A stretch of 64,000 nt of DNA from Mesobacillus sp. AQ2 (lineage in GTDB: Bacteria > Bacillota > Bacilli > Bacillales > Cytobacillaceae): contig NZ_CP126080.1 of assembly GCF_030122805.1 (NCBI RefSeq), forward strand, positions 4,739,960-4,803,959, read 5' to 3'. Position 1 is the first letter of the stretch. The number at the start of each line of letters is the position of its first letter. This document shows positions 8,803 to 27,400 of the stretch, one piece after another. Below the pieces are notes generated by a model. It saw only the letters and a list, made by a program, of their open reading frames with translations, had not been told where the DNA came from and searched no databases. Position numbers and translations under genes: made by a program.

Positions 8803-8806
8803 GGTA

Positions 8807-9147
8807 TTATTCATCATCTATTTCGCCATCACCAATCTCATCTTCTTCTTCCACATCTTCCAGCTGTTCATCATCTTCAGGAGGAGCATCGTTGCCACAC
8901 CCTGTAATAGAGAACATTGAAATCGCTAATAATAGCAGGCTCTTTTCTCAAACTTTGTTGCTATCGACTACTAAATTGGATTGAATGACCTAGTTTTCTT
9001 TATAAAATTCAGGCTTATTATGAGAAAAGAGCTTGCACACTTAAAAACGAACTGCAAAATTGCTTATAGCACGTTAAAATCGGCTTTAAGATTTTAACAA
9101 CAATCTTTACGAAAACAGCCTAATAGCATAACCAGATACTTTCTCAT
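8807..9147 (-). pseudogene. Small lipoprotein gene split by a miniature transposon
   Basis: A strong GGAGG site precedes ATG at 9147, and nine codons (MRKYLVMLL) are read before the frame enters foreign DNA and stops. The frame resumes after 8930 as LAISMFSITGCGND plus a highly acidic tail, ending at 8807. Removing the 183-bp element and one copy of its 8-bp duplication restores exactly 49 codons plus stop. This encodes a lipoprotein with lipobox SITGC and an anionic mature peptide rich in Asp and Glu. The present allele cannot make the lipoprotein. The function of the intact form is unknown. Confidence 0.85.
8938..9120. mobile_element. 183-bp MITE-like element with ISL3-type ends and 8-bp target duplication
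   Basis: The element has imperfect terminal inverted repeats of about 26 bp: GGCTCTTTTCTCAAACTTTG at the left and, reversed, GGCTGTTTTCGTAAAGATTG at the right. It is flanked by perfect direct repeats TAATAGCA at 8930-8937 and 9121-9128. It contains no gene. GGCTCTTT ends plus 8-bp duplications are hallmarks of the ISL3 family, so it is probably mobilised in trans by an ISL3 transposase. An internal TGAGAAAAGAGC (9020-9031) is inverted relative to the left end. Confidence 0.85.
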
Positions 9148-9275
9148 GAAAAAAACCTCCTTTTGAAAAAGTATGTCCTGGAATACGGGGATTCTCTTTA
9201 ACGGGGATAAAAATTACTGATAATTTGTAATAAATATCTAAAAAAGACAAACAATATCGGGAAAGGAGTGTATCA

Positions 9276-10271
9276 TTGATGCGAGAAATAAGTGTGGGTT
9301 TAACCTCAACAGAAATATCGAATATATGGTCATCTTACTTAAAAAGCAGTATGGAACTTCGTTTTTTTCAATATTTTTATAGGACAGCTGATGATTTGGA
9401 ACTGAAAAAGATTTTAGAAAAAATGGTCGTTTTCTCTGAGAAAAGCCTGAACGACCTGAAAAACATTTTTCTAAAAGAGAATCTCACTATACCGCTAGGA
9501 TTTACGGAAAAAGACGTCAGACTCGACGTTGAAAAGTTTTTTTCTGATACTTTTATATTATATATTTGCCATGATATTACCATGCTTTCACTGACTACCT
9601 ATCCGAGCGCTTTTCCGGATTGCACACGCAATGATACAAGGGATTATTTTCAAGGGGCCATAGAATTCACCATCAGTATTCAAAATGAAATTACAGACCT
9701 GATGCTGCAGCAGGGGATTTTTCTGAAATCTCCCCAGGTAGCGATGGACCATACCATTGATCTGGTGGATGAAATGAAATATCTGAACGGCCTATTTGGG
9801 CATTCCAGGCCTTTAAATGCACCTGAAATTGCAAACCTCTCAAGAATTCTCCATCGGGCGCACTTTTCAAAAATGGTTCTATTATCCTTTAGTAAGCTCG
9901 CCAGCCATAAGGAAGTAAAACAACATTTAAGCAAAGGAGTTGATGCGCTCAATAAAGTGCTGGATACGCTTGAGGATACATTTAATAAAGAAAATATTCC
10001 TTATTCAGCTTCTGGTGATTTCAACTTTTTTGAAGTGAATCATTCACCCTTTTCAGATAAACTGATGCTGTTTTTCGTTAATACATGCCTCGGAATGTTC
10101 TGCTTCATTATGATCAATCAGGCTTTAACCTCAAGTTTACGGTCAGATATTGTAACCAAATTCACTCTGATCTCAGCTCAAATGAAAAAATTTTACGGAA
10201 AAGGCCTGTTGCTCATGATTACCGAAAAATGGCTCGAACAGCCTCCTCAGGTTTTCAACCGAAAGTCATAA
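9276..10271 (+). CDS. DUF3231 family protein (two ferritin-like/CotF-like repeats)
   Basis: The 331-residue protein is made of two related ~165-residue helical halves. Each begins with a segment like EISNIWSSYLKSSMELRFFQYF (first) or EIANLSRILHRAHFSKMVLL (second). This tandem arrangement is typical of Bacillus DUF3231 proteins, related to the spore coat CotF-like four-helix fold. No function is established for the family; many members are expressed in sporulating cells. GGAG is followed by TTG (9276) and ATG (9279); either could be the start. A terminator follows immediately. The gene stands alone. Confidence 0.78.
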   Translation: MMREISVGLTSTEISNIWSSYLKSSMELRFFQYFYRTADDLELKKILEKMVVFSEKSLNDLKNIFLKENLTIPLGFTEKDVRLDVEKFFSDTFILYICHDITMLSLTTYPSAFPDCTRNDTRDYFQGAIEFTISIQNEITDLMLQQGIFLKSPQVAMDHTIDLVDEMKYLNGLFGHSRPLNAPEIANLSRILHRAHFSKMVLLSFSKLASHKEVKQHLSKGVDALNKVLDTLEDTFNKENIPYSASGDFNFFEVNHSPFSDKLMLFFVNTCLGMFCFIMINQALTSSLRSDIVTKFTLISAQMKKFYGKGLLLMITEKWLEQPPQVFNRKS

Positions 10272-10308
10272 AAAGGATTCCTACTGAGTAATCCAGTAGG
10301 AATCCTTT
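10272..10308. terminator. Bidirectional terminator
   Basis: AAAGGATTCCTACTG / CAGTAGGAATCCTTT stem with a short loop between two convergent genes. Confidence 0.85.
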
Positions 10309-10314
10309 ATTTAA

Positions 10315-10926
10315 TTATTCCTTTGTTACCAGGTAGGCTTTGTACTCTGCTTTGCCTGCTTCTTCTACGTATACTGCCAGTACCCAGTCTCCGTTAGGAA
10401 GAGTGCTACCATTTAGTACAGTGCCATCCCATAGGTATTCGTGGTATGGAACCGGGGCATTCGTGAAAGAGCCAATTGTGTCTACAAAGTCACCAATGGT
10501 GCCATTTGGATTGAACACATAAAGATCATATTCTAATACTTCTGCCCCGCCCGGAAGATAGGCACCTACATAATACCCGTCTTCAGCTTTATCCATGTAT
10601 GCACCTGTTACACGAGGGTAATCCGGCTCTCCGATGAAAAGGATCGTTGGCACGTCAAATGTCTCAGACCCATCAGAGACTTTAATGGTTCCTTCATAAT
10701 ATCCTGGGTCCAGTTTTGAAGTATCAACCTGGACATTGAAGTTCACTTGCTGAGACTTGCCTGCATTCACTTTCAGGTTGTTGCTTGTCATTACCTTAAT
10801 GCCAGCTGGATTTCCGGCAAACTCTACATCAAAGCTATAGGTCTTGCTTTTTCCTGAAAGGTTTTTGATTTCAAAGCTATTCTTTTCAACTTGCTTGCCG
10901 CTTCTGGACACTCTTTCCAATTTCAC
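10315..10926 (-). pseudogene. C-terminal remnant of a Vpr-like subtilisin protease
   Basis: This 203-codon frame resembles the last quarter of Bacillus Vpr. It has a Fn3-like domain (residues ~10-95), then EPDYPRVT, an AYLPGGAEVLEYDLYVF segment and a terminal YLWDG/LPNGDW segment, as in the Vpr C terminus. The signal peptide, propeptide and S8 catalytic domain are missing. An in-frame TAA lies 18 bases before the GTG, and no ribosome site is evident. The upstream 100 bases already belong to the symporter promoter region, so the 5' ~600 codons have been deleted. Expression as a standalone secreted domain is unlikely without a signal peptide. Confidence 0.7.
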
Positions 10927-11032
10927 TATTGTCTGTTTCAGTTAACAGGTGTAGTTTATAATTAAGTGCATTTTCTTCATTCTTATAGGGGTTATAAGAA
11001 AAACAATTTCACAAAAAGAGGCGGTACATAAA

Positions 11033-12259
11033 GTGAATCTATGGAATTCATACAAAAATTCATCATTTATTTTAAAAATGACCATCGGCTTTGTTCTGGG
11101 GATATTAGCTGGTGTTCTGCTGGGGGCTGATGCGGAGTTCTTGAAGCCATTTGGCACGCTGTTGATCAAGCTTCTTAGTCTTATTGCTACTCCAGTAGTG
11201 TTCTTGACGGTTGTGCTGGCAGTCAATCAAATGAACCCTGCACAGCTTGGCAGGACCGGAGGTAAATTGATCCTGTATTATGGGGCAACAACTGCTGCGG
11301 CTGTGTTGATTGGTCTGGGTCTTGCGTTATGGATCAATCCCGGGGAATCCTTGACACTCCCGAATACGACCGTAGAGAAACCTGCGACACCATCCATTTC
11401 TGATGTCATTTTCAGCATCGTCCCTGATAATTTCTTTTCAGCTTTCACAACCGGGAACTTGATGGCGATTCTGTTTCTGGGGATCATCATCGGCTTCACG
11501 ATTTCAGGAATGAGGTTTTCCGGTGAGGAGAAAACCCAGCAATACGGGGTACAGCTGCAAACTTTCCTTGAGGCAGCCAATGAGCTGTTCTTCAGGATTT
11601 TGAAGGGAATCCTTCTTTACGCACCGATCGGTATTTTTGCCATCAGCGCATCCACTTTTGGCACACAAGGGTGGGATACATTAACGTCACTACTGGAATT
11701 TACAGCGGTTTTTTATATTGGAATCATCATCCTCTGGGTTTTCGTGTACAGCGGGACTCTTAAACTGTTCAAGATCCCGGTCAGGAGCTTTTTCGCGAAT
11801 ACGAAGGATGCATACACAACGGCTTTCTTCACTTCGAGCAGCATCGCTTCCCTTCCAGTAGCCATCGAAAGTGCGAAAAAGGCTGGAATTTCCGAGAAGA
11901 TGGTGAACTTCAGTTTGCCGCTTGGCGCTGTGTTCAACTCTGATGGCGGAGCACTAAGAATGGGTGCATCGATTGTTTTTGCCGCCAATGTCACTGGTGC
12001 CAATTTCTCGCTGATTGATTTCGTTACCATCATTCTTGTTGGTACATTGCTTTCCATCGGAACAGCAGGCATTCCTGCCGCAGGGCTTGTCACCCTGTCA
12101 GTGGTACTGACGATGTTCGACCTGCCGCTTGAAGTCGTCGCACTGATCGCTGGCGTCGATGCGATCATCGGCATGGCCGGGACGGCTTCCAATGTCGTCG
12201 GGGACGTCGTAGGAGCCGCTGTAGTTGACCAATCTGAAAAGAAAGCAGAATTAGCTTGA
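11033..12259 (+). CDS. Dicarboxylate/amino acid:cation symporter (DAACS family)
   Basis: The 408-residue membrane protein has the GltPh/GltT/DctA fold: six N-terminal helices, hairpin HP1 with a serine-rich tip (TSSSIASLPV), TM7 with NSDGGALRMG in place of the usual NMDGT motif, HP2 (GTAGIPAAGLV) and TM8 (DAIIGMAGTASNVVGD). It couples uptake of an anionic amino acid or dicarboxylate to Na+ or H+. The TM7 motif is altered, and the TM8 arginine that selects acidic side chains in glutamate carriers is absent. The substrate may therefore differ from glutamate, for example a neutral amino acid. The GTG start is preceded by AGAGGCGG. A terminator follows. Confidence 0.85.
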   Translation: MNLWNSYKNSSFILKMTIGFVLGILAGVLLGADAEFLKPFGTLLIKLLSLIATPVVFLTVVLAVNQMNPAQLGRTGGKLILYYGATTAAAVLIGLGLALWINPGESLTLPNTTVEKPATPSISDVIFSIVPDNFFSAFTTGNLMAILFLGIIIGFTISGMRFSGEEKTQQYGVQLQTFLEAANELFFRILKGILLYAPIGIFAISASTFGTQGWDTLTSLLEFTAVFYIGIIILWVFVYSGTLKLFKIPVRSFFANTKDAYTTAFFTSSSIASLPVAIESAKKAGISEKMVNFSLPLGAVFNSDGGALRMGASIVFAANVTGANFSLIDFVTIILVGTLLSIGTAGIPAAGLVTLSVVLTMFDLPLEVVALIAGVDAIIGMAGTASNVVGDVVGAAVVDQSEKKAELA

Positions 12260-22453: not shown

Positions 22454-23077
22454 ATGTCACATAAAATGAATAGTTCTTCGATTCATTTTTTCTTGTTATT
22501 GGTTGTTTTACTTGTACTTATTTGGTCCCTGATTAAACCGGAAGAAGGATATATGGTTTTGTTGGTGGAGGTTTTACCTTCAATATTGGCAATACTGTTT
22601 TTAGTATTAACATATAATCAGTTTCGCCTCACCACTGTTTCCTATGTCATCATTACCTTTCTTGTCATTTTGACGTTTGTAGGGGGGCATTATTCTTATT
22701 CAAAAGTTCCACTCTTTACATGGATCAAAGATTATTTTGATTTACAGAGAAACCACTACGATCGGTTTGGTCATTTTCTTAAGGGGTCTATTGTGATAGT
22801 GATAATAGAGATATTATTAAGGAAAACGGCTTTATCGAAAAGTAAAACCACAAATTTTATTGCTTTATGTATAACCCTAGCAATCGGGGCTTTCTACGAA
22901 ATCATTGAGTGGGCAAGTGCAAAAATAGGGAAAGAAGGGAAAGTCACAAAAGATTTTTTAGGGATGCAGGGAGACATATGGGATGCCCAGTGGGATATGG
23001 CACTTTTACTTGTAGGTTCCATTCTTTCGCTATTTATTATAAAAATCCTTTATAAAGAATTAGAAAGATCCAGATAA
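22454..23077 (+). CDS. DUF2238 membrane protein (YjdF-like)
   Basis: The 207-residue protein has six membrane spans. It carries family-specific conserved segments in loops: GGHYSYSKVPLF, RNHYDRFGHFLKG, FYEIIEWASA and MQGDIWDAQWDMAL, matching DUF2238/YjdF. The conserved His, Tyr, Asp and Glu residues near the membrane suggest a catalytic or metal-binding role, but none is established. ATG follows GGAGTGA. A strong terminator follows, after which the rlmH-linked islets begin. Confidence 0.8.
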   Translation: MSHKMNSSSIHFFLLLVVLLVLIWSLIKPEEGYMVLLVEVLPSILAILFLVLTYNQFRLTTVSYVIITFLVILTFVGGHYSYSKVPLFTWIKDYFDLQRNHYDRFGHFLKGSIVIVIIEILLRKTALSKSKTTNFIALCITLAIGAFYEIIEWASAKIGKEGKVTKDFLGMQGDIWDAQWDMALLLVGSILSLFIIKILYKELERSR

Positions 23078-23134: not shown

Positions 23135-23177
23135 GCCAAATAAGCCGAGTTATTATTCATAACTTGGCTTATTTGGC
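23135..23177 (+). terminator. Terminator of the DUF2238 gene
   Basis: Perfect 12-bp stem GCCAAATAAGCC / GGCTTATTTGGC with a 19-base loop. It marks the end of core sequence before the rlmH-like repeat at 23192. Confidence 0.8.
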
Positions 23178-23191
23178 ATTGTTATCTAAAA

Positions 23192-23217
23192 CCCCAACTA
23201 CTTATGGTACGTTCACC
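23192..23217. repeat. Distal rlmH 3'-end-like repeat (att3), degenerate
   Basis: Aligned with the rlmH end at 26869-26895 it matches 22 of 27 columns with one missing base. The core TTATGGTAC.GTTCACC is kept. It is followed by AAATGAGGTTT (23227-23237), inverted relative to the AACCTCATTT at the other end of the islet. It is read as the outer attachment site of the rlmH-linked islets. Confidence 0.65.
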
Positions 23218-23269
23218 GTAACGTATCTAAATGAGGTTTCACCGGAAAATAACACTGACGTATAAATTA

Positions 23270-23557
23270 CTAGTAAAGATCAAAATCCACTGCCTTTTCG
23301 CTCTTAATAAAGTTGACTTCTAACTCCTCTTCTAGAGATAACAATAACAAATCCACCTGAATAGGGGAAATACCGTTAAGATAATTTACAATTTCATTTT
23401 TTAAATTTAATACACTTTTTATACTTATCAAATGCTGGTTATATACCATTAATAAATCAATATCTCGAGGATTCTCTTTATGTAAAATAGAACCAAATAA
23501 ATAAAAATTAATTTCATATTCTTTGATACAAGCAATTAGCTGTTTATTTTCATTCAT
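23270..23557 (-). CDS. Minimal nucleotidyltransferase (Pol beta superfamily, MNT-like)
   Basis: The 95-residue protein has the nucleotidyltransferase signature G22-S23, D32-x-D34 and a third acidic residue D69 (PIQVDLLLLS), enough for metal-dependent NMP transfer. MNT proteins modify RNAs, toxins or partner proteins by AMPylation, often in toxin-antitoxin or phage-defence pairs. The ATG at 23557 overlaps the stop of the upstream gene by 8 bases, which implies translational coupling. An upstream in-frame start at 23623 would bury it inside that gene. It is the last gene of the three-gene islet B. The partner target is unknown. Confidence 0.65.
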   Translation of the reverse strand: MNENKQLIACIKEYEINFYLFGSILHKENPRDIDLLMVYNQHLISIKSVLNLKNEIVNYLNGISPIQVDLLLLSLEEELEVNFIKSEKAVDFDLY

Positions 23558-23948
23558 CCTTTGCTGAAGGCAGGTAATTAATATAGGATTCCCCATTGTA
23601 GAATACAGCCCCCATAAGTTCATTAAATGTAAAGATAGCTACACCGTAATCTTTTGCTAACTCCTTTGCTTTAGAAGCATACTGATTCCACAAACTTATT
23701 ACTAAAATTGTATTAATTTTAGGGTTATTTTCTATTATTTCTAATGCCGCGCCTTCTCCCAATACATAGGCATCAATTAAGTAGATATTGAGATTACTAA
23801 AAGTACCCGTTCTTTCAACCTCTAAAATATGGTAATCTAATCTTGTTACTTTTGTTACAGTAGGTTTTGACTCCAGTCGCTTAACTAAAAAATCTACGCC
23901 GTTTGCTAACGGTTTCTTTAATCCCTCACCATAGTACAGTTCTCCCAT
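23550..23948 (-). CDS. Small uncharacterised alpha/beta protein, islet B
   Basis: This 132-residue protein has alternating strands and helices: IYLIDAYVLGEGAALEIIEN, then PKINTILVISLWNQYASKAK and YGVAIFTFNELMGAVFY. The pattern of a strand ending in D or E, followed by a hydrophobic strand and a helix with YASKAKELAK, recalls small restriction-endonuclease-like or Toprim-like domains, but I see no firm D...ExK motif. It lies between a helical NNYY-linker protein and an MNT-like nucleotidyltransferase, 13 bp and -8 bp from them, in a single operon. It is very AT-rich and is probably accessory defence cargo. Confidence 0.55.
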   Translation of the reverse strand: MGELYYGEGLKKPLANGVDFLVKRLESKPTVTKVTRLDYHILEVERTGTFSNLNIYLIDAYVLGEGAALEIIENNPKINTILVISLWNQYASKAKELAKDYGVAIFTFNELMGAVFYNGESYINYLPSAKDE

Positions 23949-23961
23949 TTCTATACATCTC

Positions 23962-24675
23962 CTAACTTAGGATATCATTCATTTTAATTGGAAATTGTGG
24001 ATAATCTGCAATTCTTTCCTCTCTAACTTGATTATCCTTAAATCCTTTAGCATGAATTTTAAACTGGATTAAAGTTTCTCTTTCTTCTTCATTTAATATA
24101 TTAATATTTTCCTCTAATAACTTAATTATCTGGTCATTATTAGGAACAATCATCTCTTGAGCCAATTTTCTCCAAGCTTCATGTTTTTGCGTTGTCATGT
24201 CAGACTTGTTTGCCTCTGTTGGTCCATACATTTTAAATACGGTAGCATTTTCAAATAATATATCTTTGATTTCCTTTCTTAACTCAGCTCTAGTCTTTGG
24301 CATATTTTCATTTTGTGGCAGTTGATAATAATTGTTTGTAGTAGTTGTAAAGGTAGAGCGGCTTCCTCCACTATTTACAGTACTTTTTTCAAAGTGAGAA
24401 TCTTGCATATTAATTTGGATATCTTGTCTTTGTTGAATCCTATTTAATATTTCAAGTAATTGAGAATCATCATCTATAGCAGCTTCTAAAAACTTTGAGC
24501 TTTTTTTGTAGCTTTCAGGAATTTCGTTCACCTTATCAACAATTATTTCTAAATCATTATCATTAATTAGCCATCCTCTTAGTTTTTCCTTTAAAAATTC
24601 AACTGTTATCTTTCCCGTAGATTTAATCCCATCCCAAGCTAATCCAGACAAAATAGTTGATGTCAAAAAGTCCAT
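23962..24675 (-). CDS. Uncharacterised helical protein with central low-complexity linker, islet B
   Basis: The 237-residue protein begins with a helical domain (residues 1-75; SGLAWDGIKSTGKITVEFL, WLINDNDLEIIVDKVNEIPE). A Ser/Thr/Asn-rich linker follows near residues 95-120 (SRSTFTTTTNNYYQLP). The C-terminal half is helical with a WRKLAQEMIVPNNDQIIKLL segment. Linkers ending in NNYY occur in many predicted phage-defence proteins, where they join a sensing and an effector region, but no domain is recognised here. It is the first gene of a three-gene operon with a small alpha/beta protein and an MNT-like nucleotidyltransferase. Confidence 0.55.
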   Translation of the reverse strand: MDFLTSTILSGLAWDGIKSTGKITVEFLKEKLRGWLINDNDLEIIVDKVNEIPESYKKSSKFLEAAIDDDSQLLEILNRIQQRQDIQINMQDSHFEKSTVNSGGSRSTFTTTTNNYYQLPQNENMPKTRAELRKEIKDILFENATVFKMYGPTEANKSDMTTQKHEAWRKLAQEMIVPNNDQIIKLLEENINILNEEERETLIQFKIHAKGFKDNQVREERIADYPQFPIKMNDILS

Positions 24676-24823
24676 AAATTATCACCTCAAAATTATAAAA
24701 TTTTATATATTTATAATGGAAATTATCCATAAAAAACCTTACTTAATTAATCTATCAAAATATTCCATAAAAAAACAGTCTAACTGAAATGAAAGTTAGA
24801 CTGTTTCATTTGATAATAAAAAA

Positions 24824-24850
24824 CCTCATTTATTTATGATAAGGTTCTCC
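24824..24850. repeat. Internal rlmH 3'-end repeat (att2)
   Basis: Matches the rlmH 3' end (26869-26895) at 24 of 27 positions without gaps. On the minus strand it still encodes the last residues EPYHK and stop of RlmH. On its left the sequence AAACCTCATTT continues outward. On its right an inverted AAAATGAGGT lies at 24873-24882. It separates islet A from islet B. Confidence 0.8.
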
Positions 24851-24923
24851 GTTATTCTCCGTTACTAATCAAAATGAGGTATTTATAAAAAAAATCCTCC
24901 CAAGCAATACTATTTATTTTTAA

Positions 24924-25079
24924 GAGTTAGGTGTTAGACATATGTCACAACTCCCAACTGTTCGAATTATAAGATAAGGTGATAAACTTCCTTTTGTTGT
25001 TTCACACGGTCGAACAATTGTTATTGACACCTCAGATGTTTATATTTTAATAGATCGAATAGGATCTGAAAAAAAATAA
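24924..25079 (+). pseudogene. Possible excisionase/HTH-like gene remnant
   Basis: One frame reads LGVRHMSQLPTVRIIR, a TAA at 24975, then GDKLPFVVSHGRTIVIDTSD and VYILIDRIGSEKK ending at a stop at 25077. The end resembles the wing and last helix of small excisionase-type DNA-binding proteins (pattern ..LPxVRI..-G.. I D..DV..LI...K). It has an internal stop and no start codon, so it would be dead. Similarity is from memory only. Confidence 0.3.
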
Positions 25080-25390
25080 TAAACCGAATATCTTCGTTCC
25101 ATTACTGGAATTCTTTTTTTCTGAAGTAAGTGACGATAATCCTATAAAATTCTACATTTCAGGGATAAAGGTAAATTTCCGGTTTTGATATTATCTAAAT
25201 TACTGACTTCCGTATTAAGACTTATTATTATGCAAAAAAACTCCAATACCTATTAAATAATAAGTTTCTTTTAATAAACTAGCTTTTTATGTGAATGATT
25301 GCTATAAAACATGTTACAAACATTGCATTATCTTCACATAAACTCACCTACTTGTGATATAGTTTCACGGTACCAATTATAACTATTGTT

Positions 25391-26524
25391 TTAATTAAGT
25401 GGAGAAAAATCACTAGTAAGTTTAGAAGCTGAAGGTTTGTTATTCGTTGCATCCACACTAACAATCATTATATTAAGATTATACTTTTGATTGATTATAT
25501 CAACCTCTCTTTCCAAACCCTTCAATTTTTTAAATTCTGTTTTTTCAAATACAATTACCATAAATACTGCATCTTTTATTTCCTCAGCCAGTAAATATTT
25601 TACCAGTTGCAAGGTTAACCCTTGTCTTAATTTAGGATTAGATGCCAACTTTACCTCGATTAAGATTCTTTCATTTACTCCTCTTGAAAGTTTAAAATCT
25701 ATTGGACCTCTCCCAATATTCGCTTCTGGTGAAACGTCTACGTTATTTGTTTGGAAATATAAGTAACTAGTTGCCATAAAAAGTAGCTGCACTGCTTTTT
25801 CATCTCTTGGCTCATAATTTTTATACCAAAGAAGTTTATAAATACCGTGATTTACAATTGAATGGACAAAATTATCAATTCCTTTTTTAACGACGTTCAA
25901 AAAGTCATCCTTTATAGTTACCTCATAAATTTCATCTTTTAATTCTTTTAAGCTTAAAAGAGATTTATATTCTTCTTCAATATCAGGTGGCATTAAATCC
26001 ACGTAATCTGCTAATACAATACCAAACTGAGATTCAAATTTTTTTGTTGGCATATTTTTAAAAATTGATAAATAAAGGGGGACATCTAAAAAGTCATGAT
26101 CTTGAAAGCAATTCTCGAAATAAAAATAAAACTCATTCAAATCCCCCATCACCCAATCAGGATTCTCCTCGTCTATATCTGGATTCTCCTCTCTTATCTT
26201 AGGTTCAATGTCATAGAAAAATAGACTTTCCCCATTATTATGGGCACGATAATCATCATCAATCTCACTAGCTATATTGATAATTGAATATAAAGCGTAT
26301 TCATGTAAAGGAGTAAGTGTATGAACGAAATAATCTTTACTCCATAAATATAAATCTTTTGTAGCTTGTCTACACTGTTTTTCTTTGGTCCTATAGATTA
26401 CCTCAGGGAAAATATCAGAAAAATCATCGTCATTAAATTCAAAATAATTCTCAATAAAATCATTTAGCTTTTCATTAGCATAACGTAATAAATCTTCAGT
26501 TAAATTAGCATAAATTTTTATCAC
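25391..26524 (-). CDS. Putative PD-(D/E)xK nuclease, islet A
   Basis: The 377-residue protein has a C-terminal nuclease signature: GRGPIDF (D276), then ILIEVKLASN (E290-x-K292) and GLTLQLVKYL, the order expected of a PD-(D/E)xK core with its trailing helix. The N-terminal ~220 residues are acidic and helical (FIENYFEFNDDDFSDIFPE) and match nothing I know. It is the only intact gene of islet A. The GTG start follows AAGGGGAG. A single large nuclease of this kind next to rlmH fits a one-gene restriction or abortive-infection system, which is inference. Confidence 0.65.
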   Translation of the reverse strand: MIKIYANLTEDLLRYANEKLNDFIENYFEFNDDDFSDIFPEVIYRTKEKQCRQATKDLYLWSKDYFVHTLTPLHEYALYSIINIASEIDDDYRAHNNGESLFFYDIEPKIREENPDIDEENPDWVMGDLNEFYFYFENCFQDHDFLDVPLYLSIFKNMPTKKFESQFGIVLADYVDLMPPDIEEEYKSLLSLKELKDEIYEVTIKDDFLNVVKKGIDNFVHSIVNHGIYKLLWYKNYEPRDEKAVQLLFMATSYLYFQTNNVDVSPEANIGRGPIDFKLSRGVNERILIEVKLASNPKLRQGLTLQLVKYLLAEEIKDAVFMVIVFEKTEFKKLKGLEREVDIINQKYNLNIMIVSVDATNNKPSASKLTSDFSPLN

Positions 26525-26815
26525 AATTTGCTCCCCTTTGAAGACTACAAAGCACTAATAGTCATAATTCATCTTTTATCTTATCTCTAATAAAATAGGT
26601 AAACAACTATTATAAGTATTAATTTCATCTATACTTTCTTCATGAATTAAAAAGATTGTTAAATATTGATTTACTTATGAAATGATTGTTCATGACTCCG
26701 TGACTCGTATAAGGGCGATTTTAATCAAAACACTATTTTTAATTTAAACGCGAGTATAATATTAAGGGAAAATTTTTATAAGCCATTCTATATATTATTT
26801 GCTTCCTAAAAGGAA
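26525..26815. other. Intergenic AT-rich segment inside islet A
   Basis: About 290 bases of AT-rich sequence between the islet A gene and the rlmH-side terminator; no gene or repeat is seen. Confidence 0.35.
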
Positions 26816-26849
26816 AGCCTATTCAAGAATATCTAGTCTTGAATAGGCT
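26816..26849 (-). terminator. Terminator downstream of rlmH
   Basis: AGCCTATTCAAGA / TCTTGAATAGGCT stem followed by TTTCCTTTT on the minus strand. It lies on the islet side of the rlmH repeat, so the element may have brought it. Confidence 0.7.
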
Positions 26850-26868
26850 CGTTATATCTTTTCAAAAA

Positions 26869-26895
26869 CCTCATTTATTTATGGTACGGTTCACC
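26869..26895. repeat. rlmH 3' end attachment-site sequence (att1)
   Basis: The last seven codons of rlmH (GEPYHK and stop) plus ATGAGG form this 27-bp sequence, repeated at 24824 (24/27) and, degenerate, at 23192. SCC elements of staphylococci integrate at the same rlmH codons. Confidence 0.75.
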
Positions 26896-27354
26896 CCGAT
26901 TAATCCGAAATGCCCGATAAATCTGTTCCACTAATATCAGCCTCATCAGCTGGTGTGGAAAGGTCATTTTTGAAAAAGATAACTGTTCATCCGCCCTTTT
27001 CAACACTTCATCGCTCAGTCCCAGAGACCCGCCGATAACAAAGGCGATTTTACTTTTCCCATAGGTGGCGAGTTTGTCCAGGCTGTCTGCAAGTTCTTCG
27101 GAGGATTTCAGCTTGCCGTTAATGGCCAGGGCGATGACATAGGTATCCTGGCCAATTTTAGAGAGGATTCGCTCTCCTTCTTTTTGTTTGACCTGGACCA
27201 TTTCGTTATCACTTAATTCCTCCGGTGCTTTTTCATCTGGTACTTCGAAAACTTCTACTTTTGCGTAGCTTCCGAGTCGTTTAAGATATTCTTCTATTCC
27301 CTGTTTGAAGTATTTTTCTTTCAATTTGCCAACCGTCACGATTGAGATATTCAC
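26875..27354 (-). CDS. rlmH: 23S rRNA (pseudouridine1915-N3)-methyltransferase RlmH
   Basis: The 159-residue SPOUT methyltransferase acts on the assembled 70S ribosome at pseudouridine 1915 of helix 69. [16 protein letters not shown] is the usual N terminus. [18 protein letters not shown] holds the SAM-binding knot, and [20 protein letters not shown] with the terminal RGEPYHK completes the fold. The frame reaches a GTG at 27366, but GTG at 27354 follows GTGGGG with good spacing and gives the standard length. The 3' end is the attachment site for the islets to its left. Confidence 0.96.
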
Positions 27355-27400
27355 AGGCATCCCCACTTTACAAACAGATTACAAACAGTTCACAAACAAT

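Follow-up and report, generated by a model that had tools for sequence, protein, structure and literature searches.

In staphylococci, the staphylococcal cassette chromosome (SCC), which is the resistance island of methicillin-resistant Staphylococcus aureus and is best known as a carrier of methicillin resistance, inserts at rlmH. It is integrated at the last codons of this gene by Ccr serine recombinases. Integron gene cassettes are small, recombinase-free and stacked at one site, each with its own recombination site. Here we analysed the last 64 kb of the complete 4,803,959-bp chromosome of Mesobacillus sp. AQ2 (64,000 nt of NZ_CP126080.1, hereafter the window), in which short AT-rich units lie behind rlmH. 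With good confidence, we interpret them as an array of ccr-less, SCC-like (pseudo-SCC-like) cassettes in the last codons of rlmH, placed there by a Ccr-type recombinase that acted in trans or has since been lost.

Islands of the SCC type at rlmH have already been described beyond the staphylococci. PMC10581047 gives the staphylococcal repeat as GAAGC(A/G)TATCATAA(G/A)TGA, names Bacillus cereus, Geobacillus vulcani and Enterococcus faecium among the hosts of rlmH islands, and refers to a study where an SCC was excised from rlmH by ccrDE without the latter moving along, which provides a precedent for action in trans. PMC10061031 describes islands behind rlmH in several Bacillota, including Bacillus, Listeria and Planococcus, with a second rlmH-end copy, tandem composites and three confirmed empty sites. 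The Enterococcus cassette chromosome (ECC; PMC6222049) is defined by ccrAB; a 32-kb element was transferred, and the C of TATCATAA was reported to be essential.

The window shares with SCC, pseudo-SCC and their composites the insertion in the last codons of rlmH, the direct repeats (the distal copy decayed) and inverted arms, the tandem arrangement and the variable cargo, whereas neither its array nor its genome has ccr or helicase genes, and its units measure about 1.5 kb and carry one to three genes. Thus, integration at the rlmH 3' end and the repeats with arms agree with SCC, the ccr complex is absent, and the array would be classified from its sequence as pseudo-SCC (SCC ends at rlmH without ccr), with two of the ends decayed. 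The islands of PMC10061031 occupy the same site, had their second end located from the rlmH end, and likewise form tandem composites and leave empty sites; however, they were found through primase-helicase loci and mostly carry one or two large serine recombinases (LSRs), both of which the window cassettes lack, and the main text of that paper does not name Mesobacillus, Lederbergia or Neobacillus. ECC uses the rlmH site and the TATCATAA core as the window does, with an att site of about 50 bp with dyad symmetry (PMC6222049), but it is ccrAB-defined and its mobility was shown experimentally. Unlike an integron, the window array has no integrase beside it and would depend on another class of recombinase, so it is not a member of that group. 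The features of the locus, from rlmH to the distal chromosomal flank, are as follows.

26875..27366, minus strand: rlmH, the target gene, encoding a 23S rRNA methyltransferase of the SPOUT family (Pfam PF02590, E 2e-60).
26864..26895, unstranded: rlmH-side attachment site, the last codons of rlmH with inverted arm TAAATGAGGTTTTT.
25397..26863, minus strand: cassette A1, 28.8% GC (over 25369-26863), with a block 90% identical in nucleotides in genome G415.
25391..26524, minus strand: gene of a 377-aa protein with a PD-(D/E)xK nuclease fold, in A1.
25341..25396 (ends approximate), unstranded: decayed attachment site separating A1 from A2, core TATCACAA, recognised by alignment to an intact site copy in G415.
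24885..25340, unstranded: unit A2, a remnant without an open reading frame (ORF) of at least 60 aa, 27.7% GC.
24872..24883, minus strand: inverted arm AATACCTCATTT, closing A2.
24819..24850, unstranded: second attachment site, 29/32 identical to the rlmH end.
23241..24818, minus strand: cassette B, an operon of three genes, 29.6% GC.
23962..24675, minus strand: gene of a 237-aa GapS6a-like protein with a HetE-N domain (PF20701, 93.8 bits, cut-off 25), in B.
23550..23948, minus strand: gene of a 132-aa protein without a family match, in B.
23270..23623, minus strand: gene of a 117-aa nucleotidyltransferase-like protein (PF01909, PF18765), in B.
23229..23240, minus strand: inverted arm GAAACCTCATTT, closing B.
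23190..23218, unstranded: distal attachment site, core short by one base.
23135..23177, unstranded: hairpin of the chromosomal flank, common to G006 and the empty site of G012.
22454..23077, plus strand: gene of a DUF2238 membrane protein (PF09997), the first of the distal chromosomal flank and the same neighbour as in G006 and G012.

The original prediction was of two tandem islets bounded by copies of the last rlmH codons near 24824 and, degenerate, near 23192. The 32 nt of 26864-26895 were indeed found again at 24819-24850 with 3 mismatches, a repeat matched in none of 100 dinucleotide shuffles, and a degenerate 27-nt form (at most 3 mismatches) occurred at these two places only in the whole 4.80-Mb chromosome. 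The distal copy (23182-23211) shared 80% identity with the rlmH copy across 30 nt, with one core base absent, and would be weak if taken alone; it is supported by an ungapped version at the homologous place in G006 and by the sole copy of G012, which lies there. The arms at 23229-23240 and 24872-24883 each differed by 1 mismatch from the reverse complement of AAAACCTCATTT. The cores of the four window copies read TACCATAA, TATCATAA, TATCACAA and TACCATAA, with the essential C of TATCATAA present in all four and the consensus GAACC(G/T)TA(C/T)CATAA(A/G)TA(A/G). Two of the four, the distal one and that at 25341-25396, are decayed. Because of the latter, the first of the two predicted islets divides into A1 and A2, so the tandem SCC-like array stands with three units rather than two: A1 with the nuclease gene, A2 as a gene-less remnant, and B with three genes. 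As predicted, the units were more AT-rich than their surroundings (GC 0.288 in A1, 0.277 in A2 and 0.296 in B, compared with 0.447 on the rlmH/htrC side and 0.362 on the distal side).

Comparison with relatives, which the prediction had proposed, revealed one allele with an empty site and another with a different cassette. Of the 21 genus genomes, 20 yielded rlmH, counting that of the window, and the downstream DNA was read in the 19 others, two of them over only about 1-3 kb. The related genome G012 has an empty site: at most 43 bp after rlmH follows the hairpin and then the DUF2238 gene, as at the close of the window array. In G006, of the same species, the slot holds a gene for a 307-aa cation-efflux protein between site copies 1536 bp apart; its flanks are 98.3 and 98.7% identical to those of the window up to the sites, with no such likeness between them. 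G020 carries a 4.0-kb cassette with ABC-transporter and regulator genes (functions judged by eye). The genes are accessory, as the prediction held: those of the 377-aa and 237-aa proteins were absent from all 20 other genus genomes searched (among them G009, with a completeness of only 66%), and across the family they occurred in 5 and 4 of 193 genomes, respectively, the window's own counted. Two findings would have spoken against the prediction, namely relatives always carrying the same genes here, or chance repeats without empty-site alleles; relatives carry other genes or none, and the empty allele exists.

The same cargo recurred at rlmH elsewhere. In G415, which belongs to another family, the nuclease gene begins 1 kb behind rlmH, and identity to A1 is 90% over 1,343 alignment columns compared with 77% across the rlmH region; the homology runs through an intact site copy and ends there, the window counterpart being the decayed site at 25341-25396. 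A hairpin just inside the rlmH end of A1 (26812-26855; CCTATTCAAGA / TCTTGAATAGG) is conserved in G415 and looks like a terminator common to the cassette end. In G391 (65% nucleotide identity over 1,216 columns) the B operon follows rlmH directly, as it does in G055, where an HNH domain replaces HetE-N, and in G435 it starts 0.3 kb behind rlmH; in G510 it lies inside an interval that also contains a Ccr-like LSR, and G041 retains a HetE-N fragment 100 bp behind rlmH. In total, 8 of 24 other genomes had a cargo homologue at most 12 kb behind rlmH on the same contig (377-aa protein 3/15, 237-aa protein 2/3, 132-aa protein 3/6). More distant 377-aa homologues (31-46%) were partial matches, mostly located elsewhere. 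Locus L173 (G058) has two facing RlmH-like genes (1487-1960 and 2501-2094, products 68% and 36% identical to the window's) and, 11 kb beyond the pair, a 377-aa homologue (36% over the C-terminal half).

Judging from folds and families, the window cargo probably consists of anti-phage or other conflict genes. The 377-aa protein is a predicted PD-(D/E)xK nuclease, combining the fold with the D...ExK residues (D276, E290, K292 and Q306 are conserved); Foldseek alone gave no match at E <= 0.001. The 237-aa protein scored 84.3 bits over residues 1-90 with the GapS6a family NF047935, under the 90-bit cut-off, and is therefore not assigned to it; its C-terminal part is common to proteins with other N-terminal domains. 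The model of the 132-aa protein, which matched no family, weakly resembles restriction-endonuclease-type folds, and the 117-aa protein reached 21.3 bits with PF01909 (cut-off 21) and 26.1 bits with PF18765 (cut-off 26.9). The three-gene module of B (23270-24675) was also seen in L221, L172, L200, L197, L199, L201, L174 and L222; it comprises a protein whose N-terminal domain is exchangeable (HetE-N, HNH or metallophosphatase among the members scanned) and whose C-terminal part is shared, a second protein of 128-140 aa and a small nucleotidyltransferase, and is a candidate for an unnamed conflict system.

The original prediction also held that the islets are non-autonomous and moved by a recombinase encoded elsewhere. 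Inspection of the ORFs in A1, A2 and B showed no recombinase and no remnant of a helicase or LSR, which agrees with its first part. PF07508, the LSR profile, matched 33 places in 13 of the 21 genus genomes and none in G006, G012 or the window's own genome, where PF00239 had a single match, in a 239-aa frame. Four of the 33 places lie at most 15 kb behind rlmH. The search for Ccr-like LSRs suggested by the prediction failed in the window's genome and succeeded in relatives. The NCBIfam CcrB model was scored for 22 places (11 remained unscored): the four nearest rlmH reached 383.6-393.2 bits and the 18 others lay between no hit and 210.4 bits, making the four the sole Ccr-like ones among those scored. 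They remain below the equivalog cut-off of 900 bits and are akin to staphylococcal CcrB, not CcrB itself. The LSR of G004 (L039) adjoins a P4-type primase/helicase and RadC, and that of G010 (L028) has similar neighbours. In nine named loci, an LSR lies hard against rlmH.

Among 38 named genomes hand-picked for site copies or TGAGGTTT-like arms, the best LSR exceeded 380 bits with the CcrB model in two and reached 191-204 bits in three. One of the two, R. yapensis, carries site copies of the window's arm type, TGA(G/A)GTTT, on the contig of its CcrB-like LSR and a ATGAGGTTT arm behind rlmH. Its RadC gene is divided between the rlmH contig (end of L089) and the LSR contig (start of L183), suggesting that the two contigs form one element. 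By eye, the L089/L183 borders resemble group II intron ends, and such an intron may have broken the assembly at RadC. Also by eye, a SIR2-like gene (8806-10560) closes the LSR-bearing element in L183, and a dGTPase-like gene (10793-12193) opens the next interval.

The site was then surveyed in 80 named loci, counting as a copy any match to the locus's own rlmH end with at most 4 mismatches in 19; a further copy was present in 36. After 7 duplicates of genus genomes were dropped, the remaining 73 loci contained 47 downstream copies on the rlmH strand, in 35 loci, compared with a single copy on the opposite strand, 0 and 1 in the two upstream controls, and 1 with the reversed core. In 20 genus loci there were 8 copies in 6 loci (controls 1, 0, 0 and 1). 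L043 (G017:C3, 18,656 bases) was excluded from these 20 as the contig of a second RlmH. This RlmH is divergent (63% identical) and shares the contig with a RadC gene, two more site copies (+13079 and +16891) with TTTACCC arms, and a gene for an AlbA/Schlafen-like 563-aa protein, which shares 78% identity with a protein of L108, compared with 62% between the RlmH proteins. Well-preserved copies read approximately AAACCTCATTTAGATnCGTTACGGTGAACCGTACCATAAGTAAATGAGGTTT, and other arm classes include GGCGGTTTT and GGTAAAC.

Successive copies delimited 58 script-counted intervals with a median of 3.5 kb, 56 of them without an LSR frame; these numbers are rough, because a downstream stretch of at most about 10-16 kb per locus biases the count towards small cassettes and because some of the boundaries are false. 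The arm at the far end of 57 intervals matched that of their own rlmH end in 7.95 of 13 positions on average, compared with 7.17 (sd 0.16) for shuffled partners, none of 2000 shuffles reaching the observed mean. The cargo scan covered 92 proteins from 29 intervals defined more strictly. Among the PADLOC matches listed were SduA, LmuB, MkoC, Avs4 and type I specificity subunits, while transporters, kinases and regulators were commonest among the Pfam families listed, indicating that the cargo is not solely defence. In 17 of 99 inter-locus cargo pairs with at least one member in a delimited interval, the proteins were more alike than the corresponding RlmH pair, counting two pairs without an RlmH value and several whose gene recurs outside cassettes.

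Several observations weigh against cassettes moved by a Ccr-type recombinase. A profile search found no PF07508 LSR in the window's genome, and in 36 of the 38 picked genomes no LSR exceeds 204 bits with the CcrB model. The four LSR-bearing genus loci have other arms, and no genus LSR with the window's arm type was found. Cargo homologues lay elsewhere in 16 of the 24 other genomes (4 far off on the same contig, 12 on another contig), and arm matching was mixed in the 36 intervals with a differing neighbour arm (the own partner fitted better in 18, the neighbour in 10, and 8 were ties). Two points speak for chance repeats: the inverted ends of the original prediction are present, yet their 12-mer is common in the window (23 matches with at most 2 mismatches, 14.7 expected; 1 of 100 shuffles reaches 23), and some site calls in the wider survey are false.

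Part of this evidence would fit units that are fossils, i.e. larger autonomous SCC-like elements that lost recombinase and helicase in place, their remains now spreading by vertical inheritance or by homologous recombination in rlmH and the distal flank rather than as cassettes moved in trans. The two decayed sites, the empty A2, the absence of an LSR from the window's genome and that of a CcrB-like one from most of the chosen genomes are in keeping with this explanation, but the A1 block of G415, in another family, stops at a site copy and shows higher identity than rlmH, G006 matches the window on either side and not between, and the ORFs show no helicase or LSR remnant; we regard it as unlikely. 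We judge it equally improbable that a different recombinase (another LSR or a tyrosine recombinase) moves the TGAGGTTT-arm cassettes while Ccr-like LSRs serve only their own elements. The other arms of the genus LSR loci, and the lack of a CcrB-like LSR in most chosen genomes with such cassettes or arms, are in line with it, whereas the sites and arm of R. yapensis are not, nor is TA(C/T)CATAA, the known CcrAB core (PMC6222049). As an explanation, chance repeats or ordinary indel variation downstream of rlmH are negligible: common arms and false calls aside, no 32-mer repeat is expected, the strand and upstream controls are nearly empty, and homology breaks at the sites.

Under the favoured reading of SCC-like cassettes without ccr, each cassette carries an rlmH-end copy and an inverted arm, so that, as anatomy and comparison show, insertion keeps rlmH whole and provides the next site. 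Integration and excision would most likely be performed by a Ccr-type LSR like those located near rlmH in relatives; an autonomous element would provide it in trans, or it has been lost since. As the genome has no PF07508 LSR, the "elsewhere" of the original prediction would have to be another strain or element, or a lost gene. Given the decay of two of the four site copies, some of the array has probably lost its mobility, and cassette B could probably no longer leave alone.

What looks new is the smallness, number and recombinase-freeness of the Bacillaceae cassettes and the recurrence of the same cargo at the site across genera. No description of minimal ccr-less rlmH cassettes in Bacillaceae was recognised in the open-access literature as judged by titles and the starts of abstracts, which is weak evidence of absence. 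Tentatively, the rlmH 3' end of Bacillaceae may be a shared, integron-like platform for recombinase-free packages holding one or a few genes, each bringing its own att copy and inverted arms; these packages would accumulate in tandem and pass between genera and families, with Ccr present only transiently from autonomous elements and most carriers lacking it. If so, small conflict genes would circulate as minimal SCC satellites, and the DNA between rlmH-end copies offers a simple rule for finding candidate defence genes. If Bacillaceae do keep a large pool of such tiny cassettes, SCC and pseudo-SCC would relate as autonomous element and satellite, and the older role of the site may lie in the exchange of small accessory and conflict genes by an enzyme borrowed in trans.

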